Of a stretch of 64,000 nucleotides of DNA, positions 18,421 to 57,097 are shown piece by piece. Within the stretch, counting starts at the first letter, position 1; every line of letters starts with the position of its first letter. Source of the stretch: Cephalothrix simula (Eukaryota > Nemertea > Palaeonemertea > Archinemertea > Cephalotrichidae); the NCBI GenBank assembly GCA_035591015.1, contig JAXIUW010011119.1, forward strand, positions 29,574 to 93,573, read 5' to 3'. The notes below the pieces were generated by a model, which had not been told where the DNA came from, made no database searches, and saw only the letters and a program-made list of their open reading frames with translations. The position numbers and the translations under genes are program-made.

Positions 18421-18462
18421 ATATTTCACATTGACGTGAATTGTCTAGCCAAGGAGGGTTAG

Positions 18463-41271: not shown

Positions 41272-41491
41272 AACAACAATTAGTATTTGGGCCAATATAG
41301 CCGGTATTTTAGGTGTAATAGGTGCGCTATACCTGCTGGGACGCAAGCTAGAGAAGCGCTTAGACAAAATTGACGCAATTGAAAGACGTTTAGAAAGAAT
41401 TGAAGAAGTAATTAGAAAGTTAGGCATTCATCCATTTAGCCTACAAAACAAACCTGAACCGAGATTAAAAAATGGGACTAGGACAAGTTAA
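41261..41491 (+). CDS. small membrane/coiled-coil phage protein
   Basis: The 76-residue protein has one N-terminal membrane helix (IWANIAGILGVIGALYLLG) and then a charged heptad-like helix (LEKRLDKIDAIERRLERIEEVI). Such proteins often lie in lysis cassettes as spanin-like or holin-regulating partners, but nothing here is diagnostic. It overlaps the holin-like gene by 11 bp and the sheath gene by 20 bp. Confidence 0.45.
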   Translation: MDVETTISIWANIAGILGVIGALYLLGRKLEKRLDKIDAIERRLERIEEVIRKLGIHPFSLQNKPEPRLKNGTRTS

Positions 41492-42563
41492 AGTAACCAA
41501 TACGGTAATACCGCCAATTCAGCCAAACGCCTCCGAGGGGCGGGTGCTGTTTTGTGATGTGGTAGATGGCAAGGCTATTAGCCAAAGCATCACTGCAGAA
41601 AATTTAGCGCTGCTTAAGTTATCAGCAGCAACTCAAAAACTAATTGAGGCAACCATCGCTCAGGCCGGTAACGCCTTTCAAGGCTATTACAGTGCCGTAG
41701 TTAAAGATGACACCAAGACTGTAGAACAACTTTTGCGTCAAGCCATCTTACAAAGTGATTATAAGCCAGAGCTCGTTATTTGGTGCCCTGAAATTACTAC
41801 TGGCGCAGAGCTAAATCAGCTTGGGCAGGTGGCGACCACCGCAGAACGCCAAAATGAAATTTTTATTGTTGGTGGTTGGGCTGGAGCTCTTGATAAAAAG
41901 GCTAAAACTGGTGAAGACTGGAGCGCATACAAGGCTCGGCTCAAAAAAATCACCCAAAACATCAATCAGCCACGGGTGTTTATAGTGCCTAATATATGGC
42001 ACGGGACCAGCGAGTTAGGCTTATTTGTAGGTCAATTGCAAAAGATTGGCGGTGAAAACATAGCCTATTCACCCATGCGAGTGCTATCAGGCTCGGTTAA
42101 GGTGAGGGGCAATTTGCCTAAAGATATTAATGGAGCACCACTGACCCTAGGGCTGTTAGAAGAGCTAGACGCAGCCAAATTATCTGTAGTGCAGTGGTAT
42201 AACGGCTATGAAGGTTACTATTTCGCAGACCTTAACTTGCTAGGGCAGGGCGAGGGAACAGTAAAAACCATTGAATATCGCCGTTGTTTAGACAAAGCCA
42301 TTCGGCTGGTGTTCCGCAGCGCAGTCAAGGCCATTGCTAACCCTATTGCGAACAATAAGAACACGGCAACTATTTTGGCTAGTGTTTTCAGTGAGCCACT
42401 AGAGTTGATGGTTGTGAATAAAGAGATCCAGCCGATTGCTACAGATGCGGTAGAGGTTCTGTTCACCAGTCAAAATAGCTTACAAATAGGCATAACAATT
42501 GTGCCTTATCTATCAGCTAAGAGTATTTCAGCCAATATTAGTATAGACAGGAGGTCTGCATGA
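41472..42563 (+). CDS. contractile tail sheath protein (DUF2586-type)
   Basis: The 363-residue protein matches the HP1-like tail sheath family recorded as DUF2586. It starts GLGQVKVTNTVIPPIQPNASEG. Middle parts (KPELVIWCPE, then RVFIVPNIWHGT) form the conserved sheath core, and the C-terminal domain (RCLDKAIRLVFRSAVKAIANP) wraps the tube. It would contract to drive the tube through a target envelope. The gene is intact and translationally coupled to the tube gene by an ATGA overlap. Confidence 0.75.
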   Translation: MGLGQVKVTNTVIPPIQPNASEGRVLFCDVVDGKAISQSITAENLALLKLSAATQKLIEATIAQAGNAFQGYYSAVVKDDTKTVEQLLRQAILQSDYKPELVIWCPEITTGAELNQLGQVATTAERQNEIFIVGGWAGALDKKAKTGEDWSAYKARLKKITQNINQPRVFIVPNIWHGTSELGLFVGQLQKIGGENIAYSPMRVLSGSVKVRGNLPKDINGAPLTLGLLEELDAAKLSVVQWYNGYEGYYFADLNLLGQGEGTVKTIEYRRCLDKAIRLVFRSAVKAIANPIANNKNTATILASVFSEPLELMVVNKEIQPIATDAVEVLFTSQNSLQIGITIVPYLSAKSISANISIDRRSA

Positions 42564-42997
42564 GTAATTTTCAAAGAATAGGTGGTCGCGATGTTGAGGC
42601 GTGGGTAGGCACTAATAAAATAGTGTTTGACAGCATCAGCCTAAATGTTGAGTTAGGCCTAAAATCAGTTACCGAGGGCGGCTTGCCGGCGGGTTATGTT
42701 AAAGGACAGCCTTCTGCTGACGGTGAATTAAAGCTATCAGTTCAGCAATTCAACCTGATTGATCAGATATTTGAAGGCGGTAAGTCTTGGGAAGATTTAG
42801 ACCCACTAACGCTCAATTTTAGGGGTTCTGCTGGCCAAGAAAATATTGATGTAGTTGTTTACGGGGCAAAATTAACGCCTCCAAACCTAGAGGCAGACAC
42901 CAGTAGTGATGACCGCCTTAGCTGCACCATGAAGTTTATCGTCACTGGCAAAAAATTTGTTGAGATAAACGGGCGACCGTTACTTAGCTATAATTAA
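42560..42997 (+). CDS. tail tube protein (DUF2597-type)
   Basis: This 145-residue protein follows the sheath gene as tube proteins do. The start SNFQRIGGRDVEAWVGTNKI and the core LKLSVQQFNLIDQIFEGGKSWEDLDPLTLNF match the DUF2597 tube family of HP1-like phages. It would form the rigid inner tube of stacked rings. No damage is seen. Confidence 0.7.
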   Translation: MSNFQRIGGRDVEAWVGTNKIVFDSISLNVELGLKSVTEGGLPAGYVKGQPSADGELKLSVQQFNLIDQIFEGGKSWEDLDPLTLNFRGSAGQENIDVVVYGAKLTPPNLEADTSSDDRLSCTMKFIVTGKKFVEINGRPLLSYN

Positions 42998-43020
42998 ATA
43001 GTATTAACAGAGGATTAACG

Positions 43021-43299
43021 ATGGAAAATATTATTCGCCTAGAAGTAGAGGGCTACGATAAAGAGTTTAATTTCAAGGTTACACCTCAAGCCTACAGCGC
43101 ATTAAAGGCTGGGCTACGTGATAATTTAAGCGTGGCGGGAACTAAATTTTTAATGGACTGCATCAATGACAAGAAACGACTTAAAGACTTGATTGATGAA
43201 AACAGCCCCAACTGCGATATGACGCTAGAGAATCTATTGCTGAATACTCTTGTTGAGCAGTTAGGGGCAACACGCAAGGTGGTCGTAAAAAAGTCTTAA
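43021..43299 (+). CDS. tail assembly chaperone, short (zero-frame) form
   Basis: The 92-residue acidic protein (GYDKEFNFKVTPQAYSALK, then DMTLENLLLNTLVEQ) lies between tube and tape measure, the standard place of the tail assembly chaperone, gene E in P2 and gene G in lambda. It ends at a TAA directly after an A AAA AAG slippery heptamer (43287-43293). A second product is expected by -1 frameshifting, described next. The chaperone keeps the tape measure protein soluble before tail assembly. Confidence 0.75.
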   Translation: MENIIRLEVEGYDKEFNFKVTPQAYSALKAGLRDNLSVAGTKFLMDCINDKKRLKDLIDENSPNCDMTLENLLLNTLVEQLGATRKVVVKKS

Positions 43300-43475
43300 A
43301 TTGTAACTTTGATGATTACGACCATTTAATAGCCCTAGCTGGGTATTGGCAACCTATGCAAGATCCCCATAGCACAGAGGCCATGACCAATGCCCAGCAT
43401 CTTGATGAACTGTATTGGAAGAACATGCAAACAGCAATAGCTAACGGCATAGCCTTAGCCCTAAAAAGTAAATGA
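43287..43475 (+). CDS. -1 frameshift extension of the tail assembly chaperone
   Basis: The heptamer A AAA AAG at 43287-43293 is in the correct zero-frame phase (GTA AAA AAG). Slipping back one base bypasses the TAA at 43297 and opens 60 more codons, ending TGA at 43473-43475, 16 bp before the tape measure start. The added part is acidic and Trp-rich (DDYDHLIALAGYWQPMQ). The fused product would be 151 residues, as in P2 E+E' and lambda GT. The mechanism is known; its use here is inference. Confidence 0.75.
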   Translation, partial: KKVLNCNFDDYDHLIALAGYWQPMQDPHSTEAMTNAQHLDELYWKNMQTAIANGIALALKSK

Positions 43476-43490
43476 TATGGATAGCATAGC

Positions 43491-45413
43491 ATGGACAACA
43501 TAGAACGTCTGCGGGTGATACTTAGCGTTACCGATAAACTTTCGCCAGCCCTTATAAATGTAGATGAAAATTTAAGGCGCCTTAAATATCAGGTGCAGCA
43601 GCATGGCCAGCAGATACAGGCTTCTTTTATGGGCTTGAAAGACACTGGCATAAACATACAGCAGCTAATAGAGCCAGCTATTGAGGCAGAGGCAGCAGGA
43701 CTTAAGTTTCAGGCGACAATGGGTGGCACCGCCCAAGATGCCGAACGCTTCAAAGAGTCGGTTCATCACGTTAATAAGGCCACCTTAGGCACTTATGCAG
43801 AAACCGCAAAGGTTTACCAAACGGTAGCCAAACAGACCAAGATTAGCGGAACGGCACTAGAGAATGTGACCACAAAGGTCATGATGATCTCTGAACTGCA
43901 TTCGTTAGACCATAACGAGCTCACTAACGCAATGACCGTGCTTGATGATAACTTTGCTGGAGGGTTTGATAAGGCAGCAGATGTAGTAGCCTTCTTAGCC
44001 AGAAAGGGGCGCGGCATAGGCGGAGGCATGCTGGAAACAGTTAAAGAGTATTCAGCTGAGCTAAAAACCGCCGGCGTTAAGAGCATGGAAGAGATTGCAA
44101 CCTTAGTCGGTGCTGGCCTTCAGACATGGAACACAGAGAAGGCCGGAGATGCCCTTAAAGAAGGTGTCATAAGTTTGTTTGACATGGGCAAAGAGCAGGT
44201 TTCAGCATTAAAAAGTATAGGGTTAGATGATCTTCAAGCGCAATTAGTTGAAGGAAGCCTTAGTCGTGCTGAGGCCATGCATAAGATAGGTAAGGCCATA
44301 GCTAAGACCGAGAATACAAGTATTCAAGACAGTGCTTTGAAAAATATTTTTGGTACTCCCGGCGAAGATCTAGGGCGCAAAGAAATGCTAACCGTACTGC
44401 AAGCCATTGGCGATAAAGCAGACATCGGAGGTGCCTATGACAAACTTGCGGCAACCTATCAGCAAAATCCTCTGGCCTCACTAGAAAAATATCAAGGGTC
44501 GCTTAAACAGCTACATAGTACACTAAGCAGCTTGTTTTTGCCGGCCTTGGCTACATTGATGGATAAAATCACTCCATTGGTAGAAGCAATTGTAATCTGG
44601 ACGAAAGAAAACCCTACATTTTCAAAATGGATAATGGGTAGTGCACTAGCTGTGACAGGGTTAACGGAAGCGATTACCAAGTTAAGCAATGTAGTCCGTG
44701 TGGCCAAAATTGCCATGGCCGCTTTAACCATTGGCGGTCTTACGCCTTTGGGGTGGGCGGCTAGAGCTACGGGAAGCTCCGTACTGTGGTTGGTTAAGGG
44801 CTTGTCACTATTACCGGGAGCAATCCTTGGAGGATTCGGTAAGTTTGCCATCTTGCTCAAGGGAGTAGGAGCAATCATAGCTGCCATAGTCGGGCTACCG
44901 GGGATTTTAGTTGTTGCGGTTGGGGCTGCTATAGCTGCTGTGGGTATTCTGATTTGGAAAAACTGGGAAGCAGTTAAAGGTTTTTTTATTATGCTCGGTA
45001 AATTTATGGTTAAGTTATCGCCATTTTACTGGATATGGGTATATAAAGACAAAATAATAAACTGGATATCTACTGCCATAGACCAATTATTAGGTTTACT
45101 AAGCGTACTTACCGATGCGCTAGCCTCTATAGTGCCAGACTGGGTGCTTGATTTTTTTGGTGCAGAAACAAAGATCGCGGTTAATCACTTGGCGTCAGAG
45201 CAAAACCCAGCCTTAAAACCTACTACAGTTGCAGTTGACAATTCAGCCTCTAACCTAGTCTCTAGGCAGGTTAAGCCAGTAGCTATTGACTCTAACATAC
45301 TGCTAAATTTCAACCGCAAAGAGCCACCTCAGCAGAATGTTACCATTAACGTAAAAACTCAAAAGTTTGACAGAAATAGCTTTGAGCGTGAACTACGCCT
45401 TGCTGCGCCATGA
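43491..45413 (+). CDS. tail tape measure protein
   Basis: The 640-residue protein has the expected make-up: an N-terminal helical coiled-coil region (RLRVILSVTDKLSPALINVDENLRRL), a central TP901/P2-type tape-measure core (VKEYSAELKTAGVKSMEEIATLVGAGLQTW), several hydrophobic segments between about 380 and 520, and a C-terminal tail. It spans the inside of the tube and sets tail length. At 640 residues the tail should be of medium size. It follows the chaperone directly. Confidence 0.85.
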   Translation: MDNIERLRVILSVTDKLSPALINVDENLRRLKYQVQQHGQQIQASFMGLKDTGINIQQLIEPAIEAEAAGLKFQATMGGTAQDAERFKESVHHVNKATLGTYAETAKVYQTVAKQTKISGTALENVTTKVMMISELHSLDHNELTNAMTVLDDNFAGGFDKAADVVAFLARKGRGIGGGMLETVKEYSAELKTAGVKSMEEIATLVGAGLQTWNTEKAGDALKEGVISLFDMGKEQVSALKSIGLDDLQAQLVEGSLSRAEAMHKIGKAIAKTENTSIQDSALKNIFGTPGEDLGRKEMLTVLQAIGDKADIGGAYDKLAATYQQNPLASLEKYQGSLKQLHSTLSSLFLPALATLMDKITPLVEAIVIWTKENPTFSKWIMGSALAVTGLTEAITKLSNVVRVAKIAMAALTIGGLTPLGWAARATGSSVLWLVKGLSLLPGAILGGFGKFAILLKGVGAIIAAIVGLPGILVVAVGAAIAAVGILIWKNWEAVKGFFIMLGKFMVKLSPFYWIWVYKDKIINWISTAIDQLLGLLSVLTDALASIVPDWVLDFFGAETKIAVNHLASEQNPALKPTTVAVDNSASNLVSRQVKPVAIDSNILLNFNRKEPPQQNVTINVKTQKFDRNSFERELRLAAP

Positions 45414-45733
45414 AACTCCGTGATTTGAGACTTAGCAACAGAAACTTGGTACTAGACGCTGGCGGCGAATTGGCAGTGATTGAAGATGCTGCGGTGATTG
45501 CCCAAGACCTGCGCCATGCCATTATGCAGTCAAGAGTGGCCTTAAACGCTGTTGGTGAAGGCAACGCAGACTACATGATTAACCAGCTACGCCGCATTAT
45601 TGTGAGTGATGGGCGCATAAAGCCAGAAAGTATTAATTTTGCTTACGGCAATATTACCGCCCAAACCGTGAATGGAGAGAAGATCAACATTCAGGGAGTA
45701 GATATATGGATGGAGTCATCAATAAATTTTTAG
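45410..45733 (+). CDS. gpW/gp25-like baseplate wedge protein
   Basis: This 107-residue protein has the gp25-like pattern (LDAGGELAVIEDAAVIAQDLRHAI, later INQLRRIIVSDGRIKPESINFAYG), seen in baseplate wedge proteins that nucleate the sheath. Its ATG overlaps the tape measure stop by 4 bases. About 100 bp follow before baseplate J; they contain a short open stretch (SNAVRYGLCPKKINLDDY) that may be a decayed small gene. Confidence 0.6.
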   Translation: MKLRDLRLSNRNLVLDAGGELAVIEDAAVIAQDLRHAIMQSRVALNAVGEGNADYMINQLRRIIVSDGRIKPESINFAYGNITAQTVNGEKINIQGVDIWMESSINF

Positions 45734-45835
45734 CTGAAATAATCTAACCGTACTCGCACCGCAGAGCAATGCTGTGCGCTATGGACTCTGCCCCAAGAAG
45801 ATAAACCTAGATGACTACGAAACAGACTTAGAGCA

Positions 45836-47056
45836 ATGGACTACACGCACATCCTCAATAATATATACCAACGCCGTACAGATGGCGAGCTAATAGCTGA
45901 TATTGATAGAGAAATTGCTAAGCTGGCAGCTGAGTGGACTGCAGATAGAGAACGCCAAAATTTGCCCACAGATAATAACCCCTATCAGTTGTTTAACAAT
46001 AGCCCGCAAGGTAGCCTGCGCAGACTGCTTAACTCGGCACTAATCACACCGTTCAAAGAGCTAGAGCGGCTGGTTGTAGAGAATATTTTGCCATCTATGT
46101 TCATTACTACGGCAATTGGCAATGCGCTTGACCTTCATGCTAAAAACCAAAATGTGAGCCGCCATACAGCTAGCAAAACCAAAGGGCGTATTACCGTTGA
46201 AAACCTAACTATTAACCCGCTTACAGTAAGCGCAGGCAAAAAAATATTCTCAGAGCCCATTGAGGGGCAGCGACTAAACTTAATTATTACTGAAACCAAA
46301 ACCATACCTGCATCAAAAGCAGAGTTTATGGCGGTTGAGGCTGAAGCAACAGGCAAAAAATACAACCTAGCCCCCAATCAATTCACAGCATCAGACCTAC
46401 CTAGGGCTAGTTTTAGGGTTAATAATCAGGTGGGCTGGATTTTGGCGGCCGGGCAAGATAATGAAAGTGATGATGACTTTAGAGCTCGCTTGCTCAAAAG
46501 CTACAATGTGCGTGCCTTTGCACCACGCTGGGAAGACTACCGCTACCTTTTGGCACAGCAACTCAGAATAAGCCCTAATAACATCATTTTTGAGTTAAAG
46601 AAAGACCAAGCAGCCACTGCCACAGCCCACGTATGGCGTGATGTGAACCCGTTTTCAGATGCAGAAATCACTGATGGCAATTCAGCGATTAAGCAAAACG
46701 GCCTGCTGGGGCTAAGCGATAATCTGACTATTCAGAAGATCGCCACCAAAAAAGTCGCCCTAAAAGTTAGTGTATGGTTTGCTCCAGAAACAGACGAAAC
46801 TCGTAGCAACGGTATCATTCAAGAGTGTAAATCTTTGCTAGGAGCTATGTTTAGGCTTAATCACGGCTATACAGATGCCCCACGCTTTGCGCCCTATGGC
46901 GAGGTTGCCAGAAGCGTCATTGAGCATCATATCCACAAAAACTTTGCTGAGGTGAGCCGAGTATTAGTATCTCAGCATGACGGAAACAAATTTAATGATA
47001 TTCAGTTGGGGCTAGAGTTACCCCAGCTAGAACTAGAGGTCACTAAGGGAACATGA
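45836..47056 (+). CDS. baseplate J-like protein
   Basis: The 406-residue protein shows the baseplate J domain: a helical N-terminus with LDLHAKNQNVSRHTASKTKGRITV, a beta region (TVSAGKKIFSEPIEGQRLNL), then the signature DNESDDDFRARLLKSYNVRAFAPRWEDYRYLLAQ. J proteins make the ring of the baseplate wedges in contractile tails. It overlaps gpI by 4 bases. Confidence 0.85.
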   Translation: MDYTHILNNIYQRRTDGELIADIDREIAKLAAEWTADRERQNLPTDNNPYQLFNNSPQGSLRRLLNSALITPFKELERLVVENILPSMFITTAIGNALDLHAKNQNVSRHTASKTKGRITVENLTINPLTVSAGKKIFSEPIEGQRLNLIITETKTIPASKAEFMAVEAEATGKKYNLAPNQFTASDLPRASFRVNNQVGWILAAGQDNESDDDFRARLLKSYNVRAFAPRWEDYRYLLAQQLRISPNNIIFELKKDQAATATAHVWRDVNPFSDAEITDGNSAIKQNGLLGLSDNLTIQKIATKKVALKVSVWFAPETDETRSNGIIQECKSLLGAMFRLNHGYTDAPRFAPYGEVARSVIEHHIHKNFAEVSRVLVSQHDGNKFNDIQLGLELPQLELEVTKGT

Positions 47057-47601
47057 ACCAACATACCTTTTTAGATGCAAACATACGTGGCGAAGCACTG
47101 CCACCATGGTTTAATGGCAGCCTTGCCCAAGCCTTCACAACCATTAGCACTACTGTTTTGGGCAGGTGGCACAAAGGTCTTTGTGAACTAGTTTATAAGC
47201 AGAGCTTAGTAGATGAGTGCCATGCGGCACTGTTAGAACTATACGGGCTAGATAGAGACTTGCCACGGCTTAAAGATGAGCCCGACCACTTGTATAGATT
47301 TAGGCTTATTCAACGGCGCAGTGGCGTTATTAACGGCTCTACCACCAAGGGGCTTAAAACCTACCTAAAAAGAATGACCGGCGCCCCGGTTAAGGTTAAT
47401 GAACGCATGGATGGCAAAGATTGGGATGAAGTGCATATAGAGCTTAACGCCAGCAATATAGAGCAATTAAATCTGCCGCAAATTGAGCAGCTAGTTAGCT
47501 TATATGGTCGGGCTATGCGGCGTTATACTTTTACAATTTTCTCTGTTAACCACGGCGATATTCAGGCAAAACAAAAATTTATTATTGATATAGGAGGCTA
47601 G
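47053..47601 (+). CDS. tail protein I-like (baseplate wedge)
   Basis: The 182-residue protein follows J and precedes the fibre gene, the order of P2 I. It has CHAALLELYGLDRDLPRLKDEPDHLYRFRLIQRR, a pattern of gpI and related proteins that join fibres to the baseplate. It ends at a TAG stop, showing that TAG acts as a normal stop in this element. Confidence 0.7.
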   Translation: MNQHTFLDANIRGEALPPWFNGSLAQAFTTISTTVLGRWHKGLCELVYKQSLVDECHAALLELYGLDRDLPRLKDEPDHLYRFRLIQRRSGVINGSTTKGLKTYLKRMTGAPVKVNERMDGKDWDEVHIELNASNIEQLNLPQIEQLVSLYGRAMRRYTFTIFSVNHGDIQAKQKFIIDIGG

Positions 47602-47602
47602 T

Positions 47603-48952
47603 ATGAGCACTTGGACATCTGTCACCAAACAAGGATTAAAGTTAATGGCTGAAGCCGGAGTTTATGACTACCCCTTCAGTATCAATAGAGTGCTAATATT
47701 TGGCATTAAATCGGGGGCGTCAACAGAAAAAACAACTATCCTTAATGCTATTGAATCGCAAGCAACGCACCCTGACCAAATGGTCTTTGACAGTGAATGG
47801 AGCGATACAAACCTCTTAACTCGCTATTTAATTGATGATGAAGGCGAAGTCTACGCAGGTCTAAACCCACAAAATGATGTTGTTTATTCTTTTAGACTTG
47901 ATGACAAGGCCGGCTCTTTCAATTTTGATGTTGTAATCTACGGCTTTAAGGCCAATAAAACTACTGAGCCAGAGCTCTATAAACTCTATGGTGAGGGCAT
48001 TGTGCCGGTTATTGCCTGTTATACGGCCAAAATCAACAAGGTGCCCGCTGGTGACTTTATGCACTCAGCAGTCTTAGTGCGCAGGCTTATTAATGAAAAC
48101 GCAACCACTATCAACGTTACCCTACCTGCTAAGACTTGGCAGCTAGACTTTAACAAAGAAATCAGAAAACTAGAGCGAGAAAAAGAAGATAAATCCCAAA
48201 AAGCCCAAGCCGGTGGCTATGCCAGTTTAGATGCAAATGGCTACGTTCCTAGCAGCCAATACAACCCTAGTAAGATTGAGTTCCGTGAACGCCGTGGCCA
48301 ACCCTTGGGCTATGCTGGGCTAAACAGCTCTGGAGAGTTAGAGCAAAACATAGATGCCAGCAAGATAACTTCTGGCTTACTTGCACCTGAGCGTATTCCC
48401 AACCTAAACGCCAGCAAGATAACCTCTGGCTTACTTGCACCTGAGCGGGGCGGTGTGCCCACTGGTTCAATTTTTTGGTTTGCCAAGAAAGACACACCAA
48501 ATGGGTTCTTATATTGCAATGGTGCCGATATTAGTAAAACAACCTACAGTGCTTTGTATGCGGTGATTGGTAATGAATTTGGTAACGCTTATAACAATGA
48601 CAAGTTTAGATTGCCCGACCTGCGTGAAAGATTCATTCGTGGCTATGGCGAAAGTACCAGCTATGCCAGCAGGTTTGGGGCTTATCAAAATAGTGCTCTA
48701 CAAGCCCACAGACACTACATTGCTAGGAGTGGGGAGAGGGTAACCAGCAGCTTTAATCCTTTAAGCAGATACAACTATCTATGGAATTACTATAACCAAA
48801 ACGGGACAAGCACATATACTAATGATTACGCTCTTCACGGTCAAGGCTTGGTGCCAGATGTCGGAGGAACTAGTATGGGACATGCAGCAAATTTTGCGCC
48901 TACTGAGACTCGCCCCAAGAATATTACACTCTTGCCCTGCATTAAGTACTAA
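47603..48952 (+). CDS. tail fibre protein with collar domain
   Basis: The 449-residue protein starts with a fibre N-domain (TSVTKQGLKLMAEAGVYDYPFSINRVLIFG, like the DUF3751-type attachment domain). A shaft follows with two exact-phase repeats of ASKITSGLLAPER, and a phage tail-collar domain (GSIFWFAKKDTPNGFLYCNGADISKTTYSALYAVIG, then FRLPDLRERFIRGYGE). The tip after residue 370 is Asn/Tyr/Ser-rich, the part that usually sets receptor specificity. It probably decides which cells a particle binds. Confidence 0.8.
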   Translation: MSTWTSVTKQGLKLMAEAGVYDYPFSINRVLIFGIKSGASTEKTTILNAIESQATHPDQMVFDSEWSDTNLLTRYLIDDEGEVYAGLNPQNDVVYSFRLDDKAGSFNFDVVIYGFKANKTTEPELYKLYGEGIVPVIACYTAKINKVPAGDFMHSAVLVRRLINENATTINVTLPAKTWQLDFNKEIRKLEREKEDKSQKAQAGGYASLDANGYVPSSQYNPSKIEFRERRGQPLGYAGLNSSGELEQNIDASKITSGLLAPERIPNLNASKITSGLLAPERGGVPTGSIFWFAKKDTPNGFLYCNGADISKTTYSALYAVIGNEFGNAYNNDKFRLPDLRERFIRGYGESTSYASRFGAYQNSALQAHRHYIARSGERVTSSFNPLSRYNYLWNYYNQNGTSTYTNDYALHGQGLVPDVGGTSMGHAANFAPTETRPKNITLLPCIKY

Positions 48953-48970
48953 TAACTAAGATAGCTGACC

Positions 48971-49684
48971 ATGAACATCTACCACTACGACCATCAAACC
49001 GGCGAATACCGAGGCACTGAACTTGCTCAAGAAAGCCCACTTGAACCCGGTGTATTCCTCATCCCAGCCCATGCTACAGACCAAGCCCCACCCCAAGCCG
49101 AATCGGGTCAGGTAGCAATTTGGCAAAATAGTGCTTGGGAGTTGGTTACAGACAACCGCAATACAGAATACTGGCTGCCTGATGGTGAAAAGAAAACCAT
49201 TGAAAAACTTGGTGAAAGCATACCCAAGGCTAGTAGCTCTACCCCTCCTCAAACCTATGAAGAATGGAACGCAAAGAAGAATGCCTTTGTAATAAACCTT
49301 GCCCAAGCCAAAGCAGGGCATTTGAGCATGGTTAATAGTCTAGCCGAACGAACTCGCCAAGAGTTCTTGACCCATGGCACCGGCCAAGCCTTAACCTACA
49401 TTGAAAAAAAGAGCCAAGCTCAAGCCTTCAAAAAGGCGAGCTTCCCTAGCGATAAAGAAGCTGACTACCCCCTAGTGGCTGCTGAAGCTTTGGCCATGGA
49501 ACTAACTATGCAACAGGCTTCTGAGAACATTCTAAAAGCCGCCGCCAGCTGGGACAGCGCAGCCGCTAAGATTGAAACCATTCGCAGAACCGCCCATAAA
49601 GCAATTAAAGACGCAACAACCTTTAAGGCTATTAAAAAGGCTTATCAAACTGCCGAGCAAGAGCTGTCTAAACAGACTACATAG
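48971..49684 (+). CDS. tail fibre assembly-like protein
   Basis: This 237-residue protein lies directly after the fibre gene. It has a short N-terminal domain (YDHQTGEYRGTELAQESPLEPGVFLIPAHAT) typical of fibre assembly chaperones and DUF4376-like tail proteins, then a helical part with PPQTYEEWNAKKNAFV. It may help trimerise the fibre or be part of it. The Ala/Lys-rich C-terminal half (about 110-235) is predicted helical. Confidence 0.55.
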   Translation: MNIYHYDHQTGEYRGTELAQESPLEPGVFLIPAHATDQAPPQAESGQVAIWQNSAWELVTDNRNTEYWLPDGEKKTIEKLGESIPKASSSTPPQTYEEWNAKKNAFVINLAQAKAGHLSMVNSLAERTRQEFLTHGTGQALTYIEKKSQAQAFKKASFPSDKEADYPLVAAEALAMELTMQQASENILKAAASWDSAAAKIETIRRTAHKAIKDATTFKAIKKAYQTAEQELSKQTT

Positions 49685-49691
49685 GTGAATT

Positions 49692-50591
49692 ATGGCTGAA
49701 TGGAATAAGCTCATAAACATAGGTGGCCTAAATACAATCGGTTCTTTATTAAGTACGGCGAATGACCTGTTAAGTCCTATTGATGGCGCACTGAAAGTAG
49801 CCGAAACCTTTTCAGATGAAGAGCCATCAACCACGGCAACTGCATTTAAGGCTGCTGTAGAGCAGGTTAAAAAGCAGGCCGAGGGGCTCAGCGAGGGTGA
49901 AGTGCATAGCATTTTGGTGCATCCCCTAAATGTTGGTAGAAGCGGCTCAGAGCAGCTTATTCCTACGCTGACCTATGCTGAGGCTACTCAAGTACTTAAT
50001 GCCAGCCTCCGAGACCAAGGTGATCTAAATCGGCCGACCTATACAGGTCAAGTTGACTGTATTGCCTTTTTGATTGCCGCCAACTCAGTAGAAGAACTAC
50101 TGCAGTTGCTCAGTGCGGCAGAAGGCTTCAACGAGGGTTTAGCAGAGCTTTCACGACGCTTAAAGTTGATGCAAGAGCTAGAGCAGGAACGACTGCAAAC
50201 TCAAGGAAAGTCTACGCCACCAGATTGGCAAAAAATCCCCACCAGTAAGTCTTTTGGTTTAGAAGATGCCAATAAGGCTTGCCAAGAGCAATTAGCTATT
50301 GCTGAAGGCTATGCTAGCGGTACTGAAAAAGCCACTGTGGCATTAGGTAATGCCGTTACGCAAAAACGCAATCAGCTGAACAAGGCCAAAATGGCTACTG
50401 AAAAGTTAGCCAACAGCCTCAAACTGCCCCCAGAGATGCTGGCCATAACGGTTACTAGCGATGTTAAGGGTTTAGCTAATCAACTACAGCAAGCTGATGG
50501 TGCGCCACATGGGGCTTCATTTTGTGTTTTAGATGTAAAGGTTACTCCATCTGCTGGCTTAAACATAGTAAAAGGAGTGTTGGGGCTATGA
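49692..50591 (+). CDS. hypothetical phage tail protein
   Basis: The 299-residue protein is not recognised. It is soluble and mainly helical, with a glycine/serine start (INIGGLNTIGSLLSTANDLLS) and a long helical region (about 150-255). The last residues overlap the next gene by 4 bases (ATGA), so it is translated with the hub genes. Its place between fibre and hub genes suggests a baseplate or DNA-circularisation-like protein. Confidence 0.5.
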   Translation: MAEWNKLINIGGLNTIGSLLSTANDLLSPIDGALKVAETFSDEEPSTTATAFKAAVEQVKKQAEGLSEGEVHSILVHPLNVGRSGSEQLIPTLTYAEATQVLNASLRDQGDLNRPTYTGQVDCIAFLIAANSVEELLQLLSAAEGFNEGLAELSRRLKLMQELEQERLQTQGKSTPPDWQKIPTSKSFGLEDANKACQEQLAIAEGYASGTEKATVALGNAVTQKRNQLNKAKMATEKLANSLKLPPEMLAITVTSDVKGLANQLQQADGAPHGASFCVLDVKVTPSAGLNIVKGVLGL

Positions 50592-51058
50592 TGCTGCTTG
50601 ATAATAATGAAGTTAAGGGCTACTCACAGCGTATATCAATTAGTTTTCCGCTAGATTCTGAAGATCAATCAGGTAGCCATGACCGTACTGATGCCTTGCA
50701 TTTGGGTTACAAAGCCGCCGAGATAAGGGTCAGCATGCAAATTAAGTTTGATGAGGCACGCCAGCTGGGCGCACTGAAAAAGATTTTTTTTAATGCCTCA
50801 AAAGGCCCGGGGCAGGGCGACCCTCGTAAATGGCTAATCACTCATGCAGGCATTAATCAGCTAGGTATACATACCGTGCAGTTCTGCAGCGCACTAAATG
50901 TGCGAGAGAGCGCAGAACTGCAGCTATGGGAGGTTGATTTTGCGCTAAGAGAATGCGAGGCCGACCGTGATTTAGATAAGTCTGTAAACCAAACAGAGGG
51001 CAATCAAAGCGAACCGCTTACCGTAGCCCGGCAGGATTACATAGAGAGTGGCACATGA
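50588..51058 (+). CDS. hypothetical baseplate protein
   Basis: From the ATG at 50588 the 156-residue protein reads LDNNEVKGYSQRISISFPLDSEDQSG and later WEVDFALRECEADRD. It has a beta-rich N-terminal half and no membrane helix. It is coupled to both neighbours by 4-base overlaps and is probably a small structural piece of the baseplate hub. Family not recognised. Confidence 0.5.
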   Translation: MMLLDNNEVKGYSQRISISFPLDSEDQSGSHDRTDALHLGYKAAEIRVSMQIKFDEARQLGALKKIFFNASKGPGQGDPRKWLITHAGINQLGIHTVQFCSALNVRESAELQLWEVDFALRECEADRDLDKSVNQTEGNQSEPLTVARQDYIESGT

Positions 51059-51768
51059 TTAGTTGGACGCTTGGAGGGCTGCCGGCTAAGGATGTTACCT
51101 ACATCCATCGCCTTAATGGTGCGCCCTATGCAGAGGTTACTCTTAATGCTAAACCGCCTGAAGAAAGTTTAGCATTGGTCTGTAAGGCCGGCGAACTTGA
51201 GGCAGTAACCGTGCTAGAGGGCAACGCTAAGCTAGAACAGGCAGATACCGGCTGGGTAGTCAAACTGTACCATCCGGCGCAAGCACTATATAAACCGCTG
51301 TTTTTGAACATGATCAATGCCAGCTCTAGTGAAATTTTATCTAAAATATCGCAGTTCACCAAGGTTAACATAACTAGTCCGCATAATTACCCAGCCACAC
51401 CGAGATTTAGCGTGGCTTCTGACGCCAAAGATGCACTCCGGGCTATAGGAAGCATCTGGATTAGGTCACGACCGGTGTGGTTGGCTCAAGCTGATGGCTC
51501 GGTGTGGTGGGGGCCGTTGTTAGACTGCCCTCAGCAAAGCAAAACCTTTAAGTGTCCAGCCCAAATAATTCAACAGGCTAACCCTGCTCTTAATGAGGTT
51601 AAAATTGGGCTTGCTCCAGAATTACTTTGTGGTTCGCAAATTAGCAAACAGTTTAGCGGCTCAACAAGCAACTCTGGCTGGCAGTTGGGGCTAATAGCCG
51701 AGGTTCGGCACAGCCTAACCCATACAACTTTACGCATTGAAATACTTAATGATGAGGTTGCACAATGA
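51055..51768 (+). CDS. baseplate hub-like protein (gpD position)
   Basis: This 237-residue protein lies just before the spike gene, where P2-like phages have the hub protein D. Its opening (MISWTLGGLPAKDVTYIHRLNGAPYAEVTLNAKP) and the later beta-rich part are compatible with the hub fold, but it is short for gpD and no diagnostic motif is seen. Coupled to neighbours by 4-base overlaps. Confidence 0.5.
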   Translation: MISWTLGGLPAKDVTYIHRLNGAPYAEVTLNAKPPEESLALVCKAGELEAVTVLEGNAKLEQADTGWVVKLYHPAQALYKPLFLNMINASSSEILSKISQFTKVNITSPHNYPATPRFSVASDAKDALRAIGSIWIRSRPVWLAQADGSVWWGPLLDCPQQSKTFKCPAQIIQQANPALNEVKIGLAPELLCGSQISKQFSGSTSNSGWQLGLIAEVRHSLTHTTLRIEILNDEVAQ

Positions 51769-52703
51769 TTAATGCCTTCATCAATATAATAAAACAGGCT
51801 TTTCCGGGCTTTCCACGACATTACACCACGGCACTAGGCACCATTGTGGCCATTCATGAGGCACCTCGGGCAGAGCAAATTGGTGACCGCTATCGGCCAC
51901 GCATGGCGGTAGATGTGCAGCCCCTAGACCTAGCTGATAAGCCAGAAGGGGCGGTGCTAGAGGGGTTAGAAGTGCCATCATTAGCGGTTGGCAGTGGCGG
52001 CGGTCTGTTCGCCATGCCCCAAGTGGGGCAGCGAGTGCGTATTGCCTATGACTATGGCTCACCCACCCATCCCTACATTGCTCATGTGCTGCCCTACATG
52101 CAAGGCGTGCCGGCATTGCAACCCGGCGAAGTGGTTATAGCCTCAAGCGGTCGGGCTAGCTTAAAACTAACCCAAAGCGGTCAAGTAGAAATCACTGCAC
52201 CAAGCAATGTTAAACTGCGTGCCGATGCCCTTGATGCAGTGGTGGCTAGCACGGTGAGTATTGATGCCTACCGGGCTAACGTGAATATTAGCGGAAAAGT
52301 GAACAGCACGCTGGGCTTGTTAGAACAAGCGATTAATGGCGGCCGTAAACTAACCATTGGTGCTGATGACGTAAAAGCCGTTATCGGCAATTGCTCTGAT
52401 GCGGTTGGCGGTGATAGAAGCTTATTAACTGCAAGCAAAATAGGCATAGTAGCTGGCAAAAAGATAGCCATTAAAAGTGCCGCCAAGGATATCATGCTTG
52501 AGGCCAAGCTGGGCAAGGCATCAGTTACCGCCATGAAGATTAGTATAGGCAGCACTGCGGTAGAGTTGGTTGAACTACTTTATGATCTATTAGGTATACT
52601 AAGCAAAGAAATCCACCCGACTGGTGTTGGCCCCAGTGGCATGCCGCAACAGGCCCCAGACTATATAGCCAAACAAAAATTATTAGATATTATTAAAGAT
52701 TAA
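51765..52703 (+). CDS. baseplate spike protein (gpV/gp5-like OB-fold)
   Basis: The 312-residue protein has an OB-fold with conserved PQVGQRVRIAYDYGSPTHPYIAHVLP (about 85-110). A beta-helix-like region follows (about 125-265) with alternating strands such as SLKLTQSGQVEITAPSNVKLRA and KIGIVAGKKIAIKSAAKD. This is the piercing spike at the tip of a contractile tail. The C-terminal 45 residues are helical. It is intact. Confidence 0.75.
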   Translation: MINAFINIIKQAFPGFPRHYTTALGTIVAIHEAPRAEQIGDRYRPRMAVDVQPLDLADKPEGAVLEGLEVPSLAVGSGGGLFAMPQVGQRVRIAYDYGSPTHPYIAHVLPYMQGVPALQPGEVVIASSGRASLKLTQSGQVEITAPSNVKLRADALDAVVASTVSIDAYRANVNISGKVNSTLGLLEQAINGGRKLTIGADDVKAVIGNCSDAVGGDRSLLTASKIGIVAGKKIAIKSAAKDIMLEAKLGKASVTAMKISIGSTAVELVELLYDLLGILSKEIHPTGVGPSGMPQQAPDYIAKQKLLDIIKD

Positions 52704-52715: not shown

Positions 52716-52922
52716 ATGGCTCTAAGTGCGCAGGCCTTAGCTGATGATCTAAAACTGGCTTACAACAAAGGGGTAATAAACAAAGGCAATGCTGATGCAG
52801 TTTTGCTAGAGTTTGCCCAAGCTATTGTTAAATGCATTCAGTCTGCAGATGTAAACACCACAGTGGTGGGCACCTGCTCAACCGGGCCCGTTAGTGGTAA
52901 GGGAACGGGCAAGTTATTGTAG
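52716..52922 (+). CDS. small protein after the spike gene
   Basis: The 68-residue protein starts with a helical half (MALSAQALADDLKLAYNKG) and ends in a glycine-rich TTVVGTCSTGPVSGKGTG. A GGAGG sequence precedes the ATG. The last 68 bp are repeated almost exactly at 55850-55917 in the tail of a broken paralogue. It may be a tip or cap protein of the spike, but I do not recognise the family. Confidence 0.5.
   Translation: MALSAQALADDLKLAYNKGVINKGNADAVLLEFAQAIVKCIQSADVNTTVVGTCSTGPVSGKGTGKLL
52842..52909 (+). repeat. direct repeat copy 1, left edge of the cargo operon
   Basis: These 68 bp match 55850-55917 with four mismatches. They code for the glycine-rich C-terminus of the small protein. 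The two copies flank the ABC-three-component operon. Confidence 0.85.
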
Positions 52923-53005
52923 GCTTAAGGGGATGGTGTGCCTTTGAGCTGATGATTATCCAACTAGATACAGCAATCACGAGCTATCTTTTTTATTTGA
53001 ACATA

Positions 53006-54733
53006 TCAAAAGAAAAACCCTAGGATGACATCCTCTGGTTTTTGATCTTTCAACGTTAGTCGCACAAACTCATTAATCTTAAACCCATCTTCAAAATCGT
53101 TTTCGGGAACATTGTCATGATTTAATGCGCAAATGTATTGAAAGTTGTTCTGCAATGCTTTCTTATGCGCATGAGCGAGCGCAAGTGCTATTTGCCGAGC
53201 ATCAACACTATCAAATAATGTGCTGTCATGAAATAGAAAATCTATGCCGTTTCTTTGTTTCATCAACTCAATAAGCACCAAGTCGTAGCAAAATATTTTC
53301 ATCTTACCAACACCAGCACTATCGGCTTTATCAATTTCAACGTCAAGTTTGTAGCCGTCGTCTGTGGTGTTGATAATCAGATTGCCGGGCTTTTTGTACA
53401 AGGCCTGAGAATTTTTGTTGAACAATGCAACCGCCTTTTCCCACTCAGTTCGGTTTTGCTGATAGTCTCGCCGTAACTTTGCCGCTAATTCTATTTTTGA
53501 GACCTTGATATCATCTTTGTGTTTATTCATATCGTGGAGCTCAGAAATTTTACTTATTATGGTCTCAAGCCGCGATTTCTTTTCCATCATACGCCCTTGA
53601 AGAAGAGAAAACTCTTCTAGGGCCCCATGATGTTCTAAGAGCTGCATAAGTTCTGCACGCTCGTCAGATGCTTTTTTGAGAACCTCTTCACTTGAAGATA
53701 ACTCACTATTTAATTGGGCTATTTCGACTTCAAGAAATATCTTCCGGTTACGAATGATTGTCTCATGAAAAGATTTAGCATCTTTAAGGCTTCTTTTTAT
53801 GTGAGCAGCTAATCTTAATCCTGCTTCATCGAATAGTTTTTCTACGGAGAATTCACCCGGATCTTTCTCTTCCGATACTACTTCTTCAAACCTTTTCAGT
53901 TTCCAGTTAAGCGAAATTATCTTATTTGTCAGATCATGTATTTGTACGGTTAATCGATTTGCATTCGCTTCCAGTTCTTTATACTGAGGATGAACATTAA
54001 AAGATTTAATAGCATCAGTTTCTTGCTTAAGCTCGCTTTCTATACGAATCCGTTCGGCTTCCAACTCACCTTCATTTGGAACGATACCAGCCTTAACCGA
54101 AGAACTTAAAGCTTTTATACTTTCTTCCTTCTCTTTAATAACCATCAATTCTGAAACATATAGCCAATTCAGCCCAAGCAGGTATGCATTATTTAGTTGA
54201 AGGTCATATTTTTTTTGATTCCTATAATGCTTAAAAGGGTCTGTATAGGCATTTTCTTCTCGGCGCAAAAAATATGAGACTAAACTTCTGAAAGAGGGCG
54301 CATACCTTTCCTTTGATTCAACACGAATATTAAATAGACACTCGCCTAACAGATTTTTCCAGTCATCATTTTTGTAAAAAAGGGTGCCTTGTGAATCTTT
54401 TTCAGGAGGTATAGGGAGTTTGGAGGTTGAGTTAGTTTCAATTTTAATCACCTTCGCATTTTTAATTGTTCGCGTTGCAGTTATAGTCTCACCACAAATA
54501 TCCAGACGGATAGAGAAAGCCCAGTTCTCTAATTCGTCTATCGGCAATTTAAGTCTGCTTAAATCAGCACCAAAGCAAAAATGAATAACCTTCAGTAATG
54601 TAGTCTTACCAGCACCATTGCAAGTATCTTTGTTGCCAGATTGCACAGTGCGCTCAGCCATAATCACATTTAAGCCCGCATAAAATTTAATGGGCTTAAA
54701 TTGTTTATTATTTGCCCATATTTTATGGATCAA
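53006..54733 (-). CDS. DUF2326-type ABC ATPase of an ABC-three-component system
   Basis: This 575-residue protein has the P-loop NGAGKTTLL at residues 39-47, a long coiled-coil region (about 195-440) and a C-terminal ATPase half with FLFHDSTLFDSVDARQIALALAHA, the DUF2326 pattern. Such SMC/RecN-like ATPases are the core of ABC-three-component (ABC-3C) conflict systems, where they are thought to sense a nucleic-acid or nucleoprotein signal. The DUF2326 match is the main evidence. It overlaps the 75-residue gene by 4 bases and is the last gene of the operon. Confidence 0.8.
   Translation of the reverse strand: MIHKIWANNKQFKPIKFYAGLNVIMAERTVQSGNKDTCNGAGKTTLLKVIHFCFGADLSRLKLPIDELENWAFSIRLDICGETITATRTIKNAKVIKIETNSTSKLPIPPEKDSQGTLFYKNDDWKNLLGECLFNIRVESKERYAPSFRSLVSYFLRREENAYTDPFKHYRNQKKYDLQLNNAYLLGLNWLYVSELMVIKEKEESIKALSSSVKAGIVPNEGELEAERIRIESELKQETDAIKSFNVHPQYKELEANANRLTVQIHDLTNKIISLNWKLKRFEEVVSEEKDPGEFSVEKLFDEAGLRLAAHIKRSLKDAKSFHETIIRNRKIFLEVEIAQLNSELSSSEEVLKKASDERAELMQLLEHHGALEEFSLLQGRMMEKKSRLETIISKISELHDMNKHKDDIKVSKIELAAKLRRDYQQNRTEWEKAVALFNKNSQALYKKPGNLIINTTDDGYKLDVEIDKADSAGVGKMKIFCYDLVLIELMKQRNGIDFLFHDSTLFDSVDARQIALALAHAHKKALQNNFQYICALNHDNVPENDFEDGFKINEFVRLTLKDQKPEDVILGFFF
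53009..53044 (-). terminator. intrinsic terminator formed by the ATPase gene's own end
   Basis: On the minus strand AAAACC and GAGGAT pair with ATCCT and GGTTTT around TGTC, followed by TTTTTCTTTT. The hairpin and U-tract lie within the last codons of the ATPase gene. Confidence 0.5.
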
Positions 54734-54957
54734 ATCTGAACCCTCACTACTTCATTGTTGCGAAAATCTACAATGCCCAGTATGTATAATAAGTCTAGAG
54801 CAAGTGTAAACCGCTCAAAATTTCCAACAGTATCAATCTTTTTGGCTTCATCCCACAGCACAGATAAACTACCGCCTTTTTCAATAAGTCGAAGCAACGC
54901 TGCGCTTACTCCGATAAGAGCTTCATCTTCGCTAAGGTATTTTGATGGCATAATCAT
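54730..54957 (-). CDS. middle component of an ABC-three-component system
   Basis: The 75-residue protein (PSKYLSEDEALIGVSAALLRLIEKGGSL, later LALDLLYILGIVDFRNNEVVRV) has the size, helical content and gene position of ABC-3C middle components, which connect the effector protein to the ATPase. It overlaps both neighbours by 4 bases, so all three are co-translated. The call depends on context more than on motifs. Confidence 0.65.
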   Translation of the reverse strand: MIMPSKYLSEDEALIGVSAALLRLIEKGGSLSVLWDEAKKIDTVGNFERFTLALDLLYILGIVDFRNNEVVRVQI

Positions 54958-55685
54958 TTTTCAAATACATCACATATATGAAAGAGGTACGATAATACAG
55001 CTACGCTGGCTGCTTGCCTCTTGTATTCTGTTTGCCCATCTAGCGCAAAACAAATCATTGATTCAAAAAGTTCATCTCCAGACTCACTTTGCTTTAGATC
55101 AAGATATTTTTTCCTAAACCCAATTTTTAGTCTTTCAGTAAATTCTGGATCAAGTCTAACTTTTTCTTTTATAAATCGCTCTATCTCTTTGCTATGGGAT
55201 AACCCTGAGATGATACGAGAACGAACAGACGCTGATAATCCATTCTTATTAATCTTTTCTTCTATAGGAATTACTCCAAAACTATCACTAGTTGAAGCGT
55301 ATTGACCAGACACCAACGCTTTTGTCATATCATCCAGATCTGTAAAAGTAACTTTAGTATGAGCTAATTGTTTATCACGAAATTCTATATGTTCTTTTTT
55401 TATACGAAGTAAACTCTCTGCGTGGTAATCCTCCGGTTGCTTACCTATTTTTGTATGACAGTTAGGACATAAAAAAATAAGATTATCTATGGAATCTCTT
55501 GCTTCATCAGTCATGTCTGCTTTGTACCGAGCAGAGCCGGTTTTTTTGCCATAAATATGGGCTACTTCGCCGATATTTACAGGATGGGATTTGTTGCCAT
55601 CGCTAGCGAGACTTTTGCGACAATCTGGGAGCGCACATTGGCCAGCACTTTCTTGAGCAAGCAAGAGTTTGGTATTGATATTCAT
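54954..55685 (-). CDS. HNH nuclease effector protein of an ABC-three-component system
   Basis: This 243-residue protein has an N-terminal HNH domain: zinc cysteines Cys17 and Cys22, GEVAHIYG with the candidate catalytic His43, then NLIFLCPNCHTKIG with Asn68, Cys73, Cys76 and His77. The 165-residue C-terminal part is helical (IERFIKEKVRLDPEFTERLKIGFRKKY) and would link to the middle component, as in ABC-3C effectors. The predicted action is cutting DNA once the system is triggered. It is the first gene of the operon. Confidence 0.75.
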   Translation of the reverse strand: MNINTKLLLAQESAGQCALPDCRKSLASDGNKSHPVNIGEVAHIYGKKTGSARYKADMTDEARDSIDNLIFLCPNCHTKIGKQPEDYHAESLLRIKKEHIEFRDKQLAHTKVTFTDLDDMTKALVSGQYASTSDSFGVIPIEEKINKNGLSASVRSRIISGLSHSKEIERFIKEKVRLDPEFTERLKIGFRKKYLDLKQSESGDELFESMICFALDGQTEYKRQAASVAVLSYLFHICDVFEK

Positions 55686-55720
55686 CGTCTATCGCAACAC
55701 GAACAATTCCACCTAAGAAA

Positions 55721-55930
55721 TCATCACAACTTCTGTACGCACAATATACGGCATTGCACATATTACCTCAAGCCTGTCAACAGGCTGGCGATAACCTTAA
55801 GCAGCTTTCTAAGCTATCCAATACTTTAGAGGAGTTATTGTTGCAAGCGTCTGCAGATGTAAACACCACCGTTGTGGGCACTTGCTCAACCGGGCCCGTT
55901 AGTGGTAAGGGAACAGGTGGACTCAGTTAG
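55721..55930 (+). pseudogene. 3' end of a broken paralogue of the small tail protein
   Basis: The plus strand reads YTALHILPQACQQAGDN, then LSKLSNTLEELLLQASADVN, then TTVVGTCSTGPVSGKGTGG to a TAG. The last part matches the small protein at 52716. No start codon fits upstream, where the HNH gene begins on the other strand, so the 5' end is missing. The stop overlaps the end of the DUF6765-like gene. Confidence 0.6.
55850..55917 (+). repeat. direct repeat copy 2, right edge of the cargo operon
   Basis: 68 bp matching 52842-52909 at 64 of 68 positions. It lies inside the broken paralogue described above. Confidence 0.85.
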
Positions 55931-57006
55931 GTAGCGTATATCTTATGTTTAGGCAATAAATCCTTTAACGTATACCAACGATGGTACGCTGCTGCTTGGT
56001 GGAAACGATAACAGTTGCCAATTTCAGCTGGTTCTGTAGATTCGAATGTATCCTTTTCTTTATTCCATTCTTCACCAACATATTTAGTTGGGTGGTTGTC
56101 TATTTCGTTAATAAACTTTTGCCACTGCTCTACTCTCTGTTTTTTGTTTCCTTCAAAAGCGATTATTCTCTCAATTTTATCCTTGGGGAAAGACATTGCT
56201 CCATTAGACTTTTTTTTGCTACTTTCTTTGAGCTTTCCGTATAGTTTTTCTAAGCCATCTAAAAAAGATGCTTTATTATCACGTTTCCCACTATGACCAT
56301 CTTTTTGCCCATATCTGGGTTCTTTGTAGTTAAATTCCCAAGTTAAAAAAGGTTTATCAGGGTACGTCATCACTGCGCCATGCCCTAACCCACTTGATGC
56401 TGTAGAAGCTGTTGCAGACTTCACTGCATCACTAAATTTATTCCAAAAACTACTAACTTCATCTTTATATTTTTCATAGAACTTAGTCTCCTTCTCTTCT
56501 AATTCTTTCCTCAATTCATCATTATCAACATGAATTTTGATACTATTTGACACAATTTCATTTAAACTAGAACAAATACCGGAGAAGCCATAGTGAGAAA
56601 ACGTGTCTAAATACACGTGTGAAGCTATTCCTAACAAATGTAAGTAAAACTCTTTGTCTGACAATTCAATATGGTTGTCGAACATTTCATTTACAATATC
56701 ACTGTCTCTGACACACAGCAGTTTTTCTTCAAGGGTGCTTCCTTTGCCACCGGGGTAGAAATGAAACGGCACCCATACAAGTCGATGCACTTCTTTGTTA
56801 AAGGTACTGTGTATCACTGCACCCTTAAGGTGATGCGCTGTGGAAATGCCGAATAACATTTCCTGTTGCTCGTTCTTTTCACTATTATTGTCAGTCGCAT
56901 CATCTACAAATTGCGCAGAGTTTGCGATAATACCAGCGTCATCCTTTACAAAACCGGCCAACCTTGCAATTGCATAGGTGCTATAAAAGTGCATATCTAT
57001 TTGCAT
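55927..57006 (-). CDS. DUF6765-like protein of unknown function
   Basis: The 359-residue protein begins MQIDMHFYSTYAIARLAGFVKDDA and contains STAHHLKG, later HLLGIASHVYLDTFSHYGFSG. This pattern of conserved histidines and aspartates is seen in the DUF6765 group and in zinc-dependent phospholipase C-like proteins. A metal-dependent hydrolase is plausible. There is no signal peptide. A charged, flexible middle follows (about 170-290). It borders the ABC-3C operon and could be part of the same island. Confidence 0.5.
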   Translation of the reverse strand: MQIDMHFYSTYAIARLAGFVKDDAGIIANSAQFVDDATDNNSEKNEQQEMLFGISTAHHLKGAVIHSTFNKEVHRLVWVPFHFYPGGKGSTLEEKLLCVRDSDIVNEMFDNHIELSDKEFYLHLLGIASHVYLDTFSHYGFSGICSSLNEIVSNSIKIHVDNDELRKELEEKETKFYEKYKDEVSSFWNKFSDAVKSATASTASSGLGHGAVMTYPDKPFLTWEFNYKEPRYGQKDGHSGKRDNKASFLDGLEKLYGKLKESSKKKSNGAMSFPKDKIERIIAFEGNKKQRVEQWQKFINEIDNHPTKYVGEEWNKEKDTFESTEPAEIGNCYRFHQAAAYHRWYTLKDLLPKHKIYAT

Positions 57007-57097
57007 AATAAATCAGTAATAAAAATGTATTTCTCAGCTAGTTTAAACTTACTGCGACGGCTTTCACTCGCTTGACATAAAACAATGTGTTTTCACA

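Follow-up and report, generated by a model that had tools for sequence, protein, structure and literature searches.

The window analysed here is the whole stretch of 64,000 nucleotides taken from contig JAXIUW010011119.1 of the Cephalothrix simula assembly GCA_035591015.1, and its main subject is a three-gene operon that lies on the minus strand behind a phage-like contractile tail module, between two copies of a direct repeat (Table 1). The operon encodes an HNH effector, a small middle component and a DUF2326 ATPase, which belong to the ABC-three-component (ABC-3C) class. An initial annotation, made from the letters of the window, had described the trio as one functional unit with 4-base overlaps throughout, and this description holds: the open reading frames (ORFs) overlap by 4 bases at both joints (2/2), and the order of the genes is the same in the relatives described below.

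Table 1. Features of the tail locus and of the operon behind it (window positions; aa, amino acids).
Feature	Position	Strand	Basis or remark
Contractile tail module, phi3/K139/C5a type: sheath (41472), tube, tape measure, baseplate J and I, fibre, others	41472..51768	+	PHROGs; tblastn to phi3, C5a, K139, BIBS67, L010
Baseplate spike, gpV-like	51765..52703	+	PHROG 4011, 2.2e-28; tblastn to Pseudomonas phage BIBS67, 2e-20, 25%
Intact gene, probably the last of the tail, 68 aa	52716..52922	+	Carries left repeat copy; agrees in place and size with gp48 of Vibrio phages yong1 and PV94
Left copy of 69-bp direct repeat	52841..52909	+	Within 68-aa tail gene
DUF2326 SMC/Rad50-like ATPase, putative sensor	53006..54733	-	575 aa, TTG start
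Middle component, ABC-3C MC6 family	54730..54957	-	75 aa; Pfam PF20293
Effector: Cap5-like HNH nuclease domain (about 1-110) and ABC-3C C-terminal domain CTD10 (132-242)	54954..55685	-	243 aa
Remnant of second tail-gene end: different, coding-like upstream part and shared 3' end	55754..55930	+	
Right copy of 69-bp direct repeat	55849..55917	+	94% identical to left copy
DUF6765 gene, possible second cargo gene	55927..57006	-	Pfam PF20551, 268.9 bits; intact; stop overlaps stop of right tail-gene copy

The assignment of the HNH and DUF2326 pair to the ABC-3C class had been offered together with a way to overturn it, namely profile searches without an ABC-3C match for the 75- and 243-residue proteins. 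The Pfam search gave the opposite result, and the assignment stands because MC6, CTD10 and DUF2326 all exceed their cut-offs: DUF2326 (PF10088) in the ATPase with 119.3 bits (cut-off 28.7), MC6 in the middle component with 42.8 bits (cut-off 27.2; MC7 and MC8 score under theirs) and CTD10 in the effector with 38.5 bits (cut-off 28.1), next to HNH with 25.8 bits (cut-off 21.4). The CTD10 profile touches the coil of the ATPase as well, at 21.2 bits and thus under its cut-off; against NCBIfam, no protein of the trio has a match over the cut-off. The computed folds point in the same direction, that of the ATPase resembling YydD, Lamassu LmuB and Rad50, and that of the N-terminal half of the nuclease resembling the HNH domain of Cap5. 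Searched against the PDB by sequence, the ATPase matched nothing, and its alignment gave a single match at chance level. Residues G42, K43, S472, G474, H502 and D503 of the ATPase, which we take to be the Walker A, signature and Walker B motifs, are invariant in 38 aligned rows, and H43, N68, H77 and three cysteines of the effector are invariant in 27 aligned effectors; all of them are present in the window proteins. The effector alignment of 27 rows omits L011, L056 (which has no HNH part) and L099 (which equals L084); in the 30-row alignment the HNH residues are conserved at 90% or more rather than invariant. Promoter-like sites show no excess (16 against 13.4 in shuffled sequence) and were not used, nor were the terminator-like ones (5 against 2.8), and the papers listed by a literature search on DUF2326 were unrelated. 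The assignment of the trio to ABC-3C (Lamassu superfamily) is firm.

Relatives of the ATPase were collected from genome contigs, where the best 80 of 427 were examined, and from viral contigs, where 12 of 13 were examined (L004/L098, with an ORF list identical to that of L003, was dropped). In 70 of the 80 genomic and 5 of the 12 viral loci, an effector relative, counted as a phmmer match at 1e-4, is found upstream of the ATPase at a distance of no more than 400 bp, and an MC6-like ORF was detected in 54 of the 80 and 9 of the 12; the order effector, MC6, ATPase recurs in the relatives. A crude HNH motif is found in 61 of the 70 genomic effectors and in four of the five viral ones, the nine genomic effectors that lack it being mostly cyanobacterial. 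In seven cyanobacterial loci (L051, L053, L056, L058, L059, L060 and L070) the C-terminal part of the effector is related, and the N-terminus, judged by eye, appears to be a coiled coil and not HNH. In the ATPase tree, which holds 91 of 93 rows (L019 and L085 were excluded for stops), the window protein pairs with that of L017, recorded as a spirochaete living in symbiosis with the worm Olavius algarvensis, at 69% identity and with a support of 100. A relative is also carried by 47 plasmid records, and the same trio is annotated in plasmid records; a tblastn search of the ATPase against 50,697 GenBank phage records gave no match. Elsewhere in the collection, near-identical ATPases occur in Methanophagales and Heimdallarchaeota assemblies (L075/L076), and very similar ones in Desulfovibrionales and Sedimenticola assemblies (L023/L024), which reflects either recent transfer or mixed assemblies.

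The neighbours of these relatives suggest a link with type I restriction. A gene resembling HsdM, HsdS or HsdR of L017 lies within 300 bp of the trio and in the same direction in 12 of the 92 loci, distributed over several branches of the tree (L017, positions 5962-14980, L023, L024, L029, L030, L043, L065, L075, L076, L077, L083 and L101), and in five of these 12 the adjacency is a 4-base overlap. The order hsdM-hsdS-trio-hsdR is found in L017, L029, L075, L076 and L101; the HsdM, HsdS and HsdR assignments of L017 and the HsdR assignment of L029 are borne out by Pfam. The closest relative of the window trio, that of L017, is located between hsdS and hsdR, and one could suppose that the trio normally works with HsdM, HsdS and HsdR and is a leftover in the window. 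This is very unlikely, given that the motifs of the window trio are intact, that in 80 of the 92 loci no Hsd neighbour was found within the stretch compared (many of these stretches being truncated), and that no restriction gene is annotated next to the plasmid trios L011 and L012 within the stretch covered. The presence of the trio within type I restriction operons suggests a second line that would act when restriction fails or cuts, and this may matter more than its address behind a tail.

As first annotated, the operon sits immediately behind the last tail gene, with 83 bp between the stop of the ATPase gene and that of the 68-aa gene, and a repeat flanks it on both sides, with a measured length of 69 nt and an identity of 94%. 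The left copy is indeed the end of an intact small tail gene, and the right copy closes an open frame that is 83 codons long, or 58 aa when counted from its first listed start, and that resembles the left gene only across the repeat and differs from it in its last residues. A degenerate back-translated pattern of the repeat core, with up to three mismatches, matches only these two places in the window, against a mean of 0.00 in 100 shuffles, and in the 8.6-Mb assembly two copies of the repeat were found in all. Over 23 codons the copies differ by five synonymous changes and by no amino acid, an outcome that has a probability of 0.0019-0.0033 under free drift, depending on the transition bias, in a test that rests on five sites. 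The 32 codons before the right copy have a coding score of 0.196 (tail pieces have a mean of 0.278 and a standard deviation of 0.130), which is reached by 67 of 5000 open shuffles and by one of 19 open wrong-frame tail pieces; farther upstream, the stretch 55691-55753 lacks a coding-like score, and no homologue was found for the upstream part of the frame. The guanine-cytosine content is 37.6% in the operon, 37.4% in the DUF6765 gene and 34.9% at 57007-57860, compared with 54.9% in the right repeat between them and 45.7% in the tail.

The initial annotation had left the choice between recombination and local duplication, and of the two it is recombination that gains from these data. According to the duplication reading, the end of the tail gene was copied at or before the insertion of the operon, leaving a right copy that has decayed ever since; the side-by-side position of the two copies, the only ones found in the assembly, speaks for it. 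Had a broken copy drifted freely, however, five synonymous differences out of five would be expected only with the low probability given above (about 0.002-0.003), and the right copy is preceded by a coding-like part of its own that is unrelated to the left gene and ends in other residues, so that local duplication seems unlikely. One consideration does weigh on its side: if it was the intact left gene that took up all five changes, the test carries no weight and local duplication also fits. Alternatively, a small element that carried a replacement end could have integrated site-specifically at the 3' end of the gene, in the manner of islands that target tRNA genes. The repeat does sit at a gene 3' end and the left gene remains open, but the space between the copies is filled by the three operon proteins, none of which matches a recombinase in Pfam (short antisense ORFs were unscanned), and the copies are 94% identical instead of exact; this origin is highly improbable. 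Because all five differences are synonymous and coding-like codons precede the right copy, the favoured reading, which falls short of proof, has recombination join two related tail loci in the conserved 3' end of their small last gene.

Searches for an empty site yielded no close relative of the tail locus, and no empty site was found. Among 5.8 billion proteins the spike had two matches, with 34% and 30% identity, on contigs of at most 1,125 and 1,257 bases; in viral contigs it had none with the single sequence and one, at 25%, with an alignment. No homologue of the 68-aa and 58-aa end proteins was found, and the conserved gene end, searched as a degenerate DNA pattern, had no match in viral contigs.

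The order of the tail module, with sheath, tube, tape measure, J, I, fibre and spike, and its homology to Peduoviridae identify it by computation as P2-like, of the phi3/K139 kind. In tblastn, ten of its proteins have matches in phi3, K139, C5a, BIBS67 or L010, with identities of about 25-41%. No such match was obtained for the 68-aa gene, for the 237-aa gene at 51055 or for the tape measure, which is assigned by its PHROG match. The ORFs at 49692 and 50591 match tail-linked PHROGs of unknown function, while that at 51055 matches none. In yong1 and PV94 a 65-aa protein (gp48, PHROG 5576) sits directly behind the spike, as the 68-aa gene does in the window, and a similar small protein was seen by eye at this place in at least 10 of the 65 viral tail loci in which a spike could be recognised (80 loci were taken and 15 without a spike match were dropped). 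The 68-aa gene thus probably closes the tail module; as the window protein matches no PHROG and no search tied it to the yong1/PV94 protein, its kinship is one of place, size and pattern only.

The element had been called headless, and part of this stands: the P2-type capsid (PF05125), the phage portal (PF04860) and Terminase_5 (PF06056) have no match in the whole 8.6-Mb assembly, in which the sheath is present once. The right edge of the window, however, is the end of the contig, and a relative of the phi3 primase lies nearby (59373-61220); the element is likely headless without this being proven, since head genes may have been lost or may lie unseen. On another contig a Terminase_6C match exceeds its cut-off with 35.1 bits (L199, which is G000 contig C563:67069-67500), and a separate prophage is likely present there.

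The impression in the initial annotation that carriage in a headless tail element looks new is weakened by the relatives. In L005 a P2-like gpU (Pfam, 106.7 bits) and a tail protein of PHROG 52 are followed by a Phd/YefM antitoxin, HNH, MC6 (55.2 bits) and the ATPase, the last of which falls into another supported group of the tree than that of the window; in L099 and L100 the trio lies right behind CI-like repressors, with ATPases equal to those of two Bombella genomes, and in L104 MC6 and the ATPase precede a portal gene. The tail identity of L005 rests on Pfam gpU and PHROG 52; a 561-aa ORF at its start was considered as a tape measure and was set aside, as it matches no PHROG. A small tail panel, composed of individual proteins from phi3, the window and L005 (the gpU and gpD queries were taken from L005, which thus matches by construction), matched none of the 80 genomic loci in what is a test of low sensitivity. 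This result, together with L005 and the prophage contigs, indicates that the trio usually lies elsewhere and that it has at least twice come close to the end of a P2-like tail module. Carriage of this operon by phages or tail elements is not unique, and only its address is unusual.

The same data bear on the idea that the tail particle, in place of a defence role for the trio, has the nuclease as its payload or the trio as its regulator. Extracellular injection systems are known to have payload genes close to their tail genes, and the trio does adjoin the spike, which counts in favour; against it stand the tail panel with its 0 of 80 matches, at the sensitivity mentioned, and the position of the trio on the strand opposite to the tail genes. 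Such a role is hardly credible.

The claim that this spot accepts cargo is modestly upheld by related phages, in which HicAB or other minus-strand genes occupy the same slot. A HicAB pair lies directly behind the spike of phi3 and BIBS67, and HicB- and toxin-family proteins do so in L010, of which the 71- and 189-aa proteins have no PADLOC match and the 135-aa HicB-like protein has weak matches only. By eye, two unknown minus-strand genes (17185-18966) are found directly behind the spike of the phi3-like tail of L186, neither with a PADLOC match and the second without a Pfam match; L174, L177 and L182 have no such genes in that slot. In K139, yong1, PV94, C5a, PY3 and ESSI-2 the record ends some 150-200 bp past the last tail gene without a further annotated gene, and in ACA1 a 56-aa gene and then an integrase lie behind the last tail gene. 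Cargo at the tail end is plausible and not unique.

Next to the operon, the DUF6765 gene resembles it in guanine-cytosine content and not the tail; it is the sole match of its family in the assembly, and no match was found in viral contigs. A bolder proposal takes these features as the layout of a reusable docking sequence: the ABC-3C operon lies behind the left copy and DUF6765 overlaps the right one, each on the minus strand and with its 3' end turned towards a repeat copy. Each cargo would bring its own copy of the gene 3' end, to be stacked or swapped by homologous recombination, and headless tail loci would be modular immune carriers. This proposal is decidedly doubtful; if it were true, cargo in tail loci could be predictable from repeated tail-gene ends.

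Taken together, these observations make it probable, at roughly 0.7, that the trio is a horizontally acquired ABC-3C defence operon of the Lamassu superfamily, carried as a passenger behind a P2-like (phi3/K139-type) tail module in which no head genes were found, recombined between two tail loci, and acting as a DNA-sensing nuclease defence. The families, the ATPase and HNH folds, the intact motifs, the layout of the operon, the type of tail and the repeat with its purely synonymous divergence follow from computation; the order of events, the sensing, the control of the nuclease and the defence activity that we infer would be as follows. Recombination would have joined two related tail loci within the conserved 3' end of the small last gene of the tail, the left gene arriving with the new module and its cargo, and the right end remaining as the stump of the gene of the replaced locus, with DUF6765 behind it. 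The DUF2326 ATPase, as a sensor similar to LmuB and Rad50, would bind abnormal structures, such as ends or hairpins, in the DNA of an incoming phage or plasmid, with MC6 serving it as an accessory subunit. The HNH protein, kept inactive through CTD10, would be freed or assembled upon sensing and would cut DNA, with the result that the invader is blocked or the infected cell is killed. The trio is most likely a DNA-sensing anti-phage or anti-plasmid nuclease, and, carried as a passenger, it would shield the host, and through the host the tail locus, from other phages or plasmids.

Several further features of the window lie outside the operon. To its right are a fragment of a D12 class adenine methyltransferase at 57098-57319 (profile positions 22-69 of 253), a 180-aa protein at 57860-58402 with apparent membrane helices (by eye) and no family match better than E 0.7, and, on the minus strand at 59373-61220, a relative of the phi3 primase that spans only residues 40-634 of 896 and is apparently cut short; the second ORF of that region (58524-59324) gave no blastp match to the phi3 primase. 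To the left, a 607-aa pentapeptide-repeat protein (36186-38009) is located between a tRNA-Trp/Thr/Tyr cluster and the tail element, and a 971-aa ORF at 8097-11012 fuses, by eye, arginine-decarboxylase-like and agmatinase-like proteins.

Among known systems, the MC6/CTD10 branch of ABC-3C shares with the window trio three components over the Pfam cut-off and the same gene order and overlaps, and differs in address only, behind a tail module where no head genes were found. The PADLOC candidate PDC-M68 is also close: the effector and the ATPase match PDC-M68A and PDC-M68B near full length (1.3e-75 and 2.1e-185) and side by side, in searches without a curated cut-off, but the 75-aa middle component is matched by no PADLOC model. 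No paper bearing the name PDC-M68 was among the matches listed by a literature search on it. Lamassu type II (LmuACB, DdmABC) is alike in its SMC-like sensor ATPase, which in the window is of the DUF2326 type, with 575 residues compared with LmuB chains numbered to about 655 and a weak LmuB score of 8.5e-11; the window has HNH where DdmA has a Cap4 nuclease, and its middle component is MC6. YydB-YydD (PDB 9a6c), from Bacillus subtilis, is an integrative model and not an experimental structure, and the match is confined to YydB residues 333-473; no paper on its function was among the matches listed by a literature search. The CBASS effector Cap5 has a similar HNH domain, with a SAVED domain where the window effector has CTD10. 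As for the address, the tail end of phi3-type Peduoviridae likewise carries minus-strand accessory genes directly behind the spike, although there the cargo consists of toxin-antitoxin genes (HicAB). Small, high-turnover defence cargo is also found in P2-like phages, in a hotspot that PMC9122126 places between gpA and gpQ near cos; the window operon lies at the tail end, a candidate slot for the exchange of immune cargo distinct from that one. The window provides a further example of a Lamassu-type immune operon housed in a phage-tail locus in which no head genes were found, and the operon itself is a new member of an already known defence family, its novelty lying in its address only.

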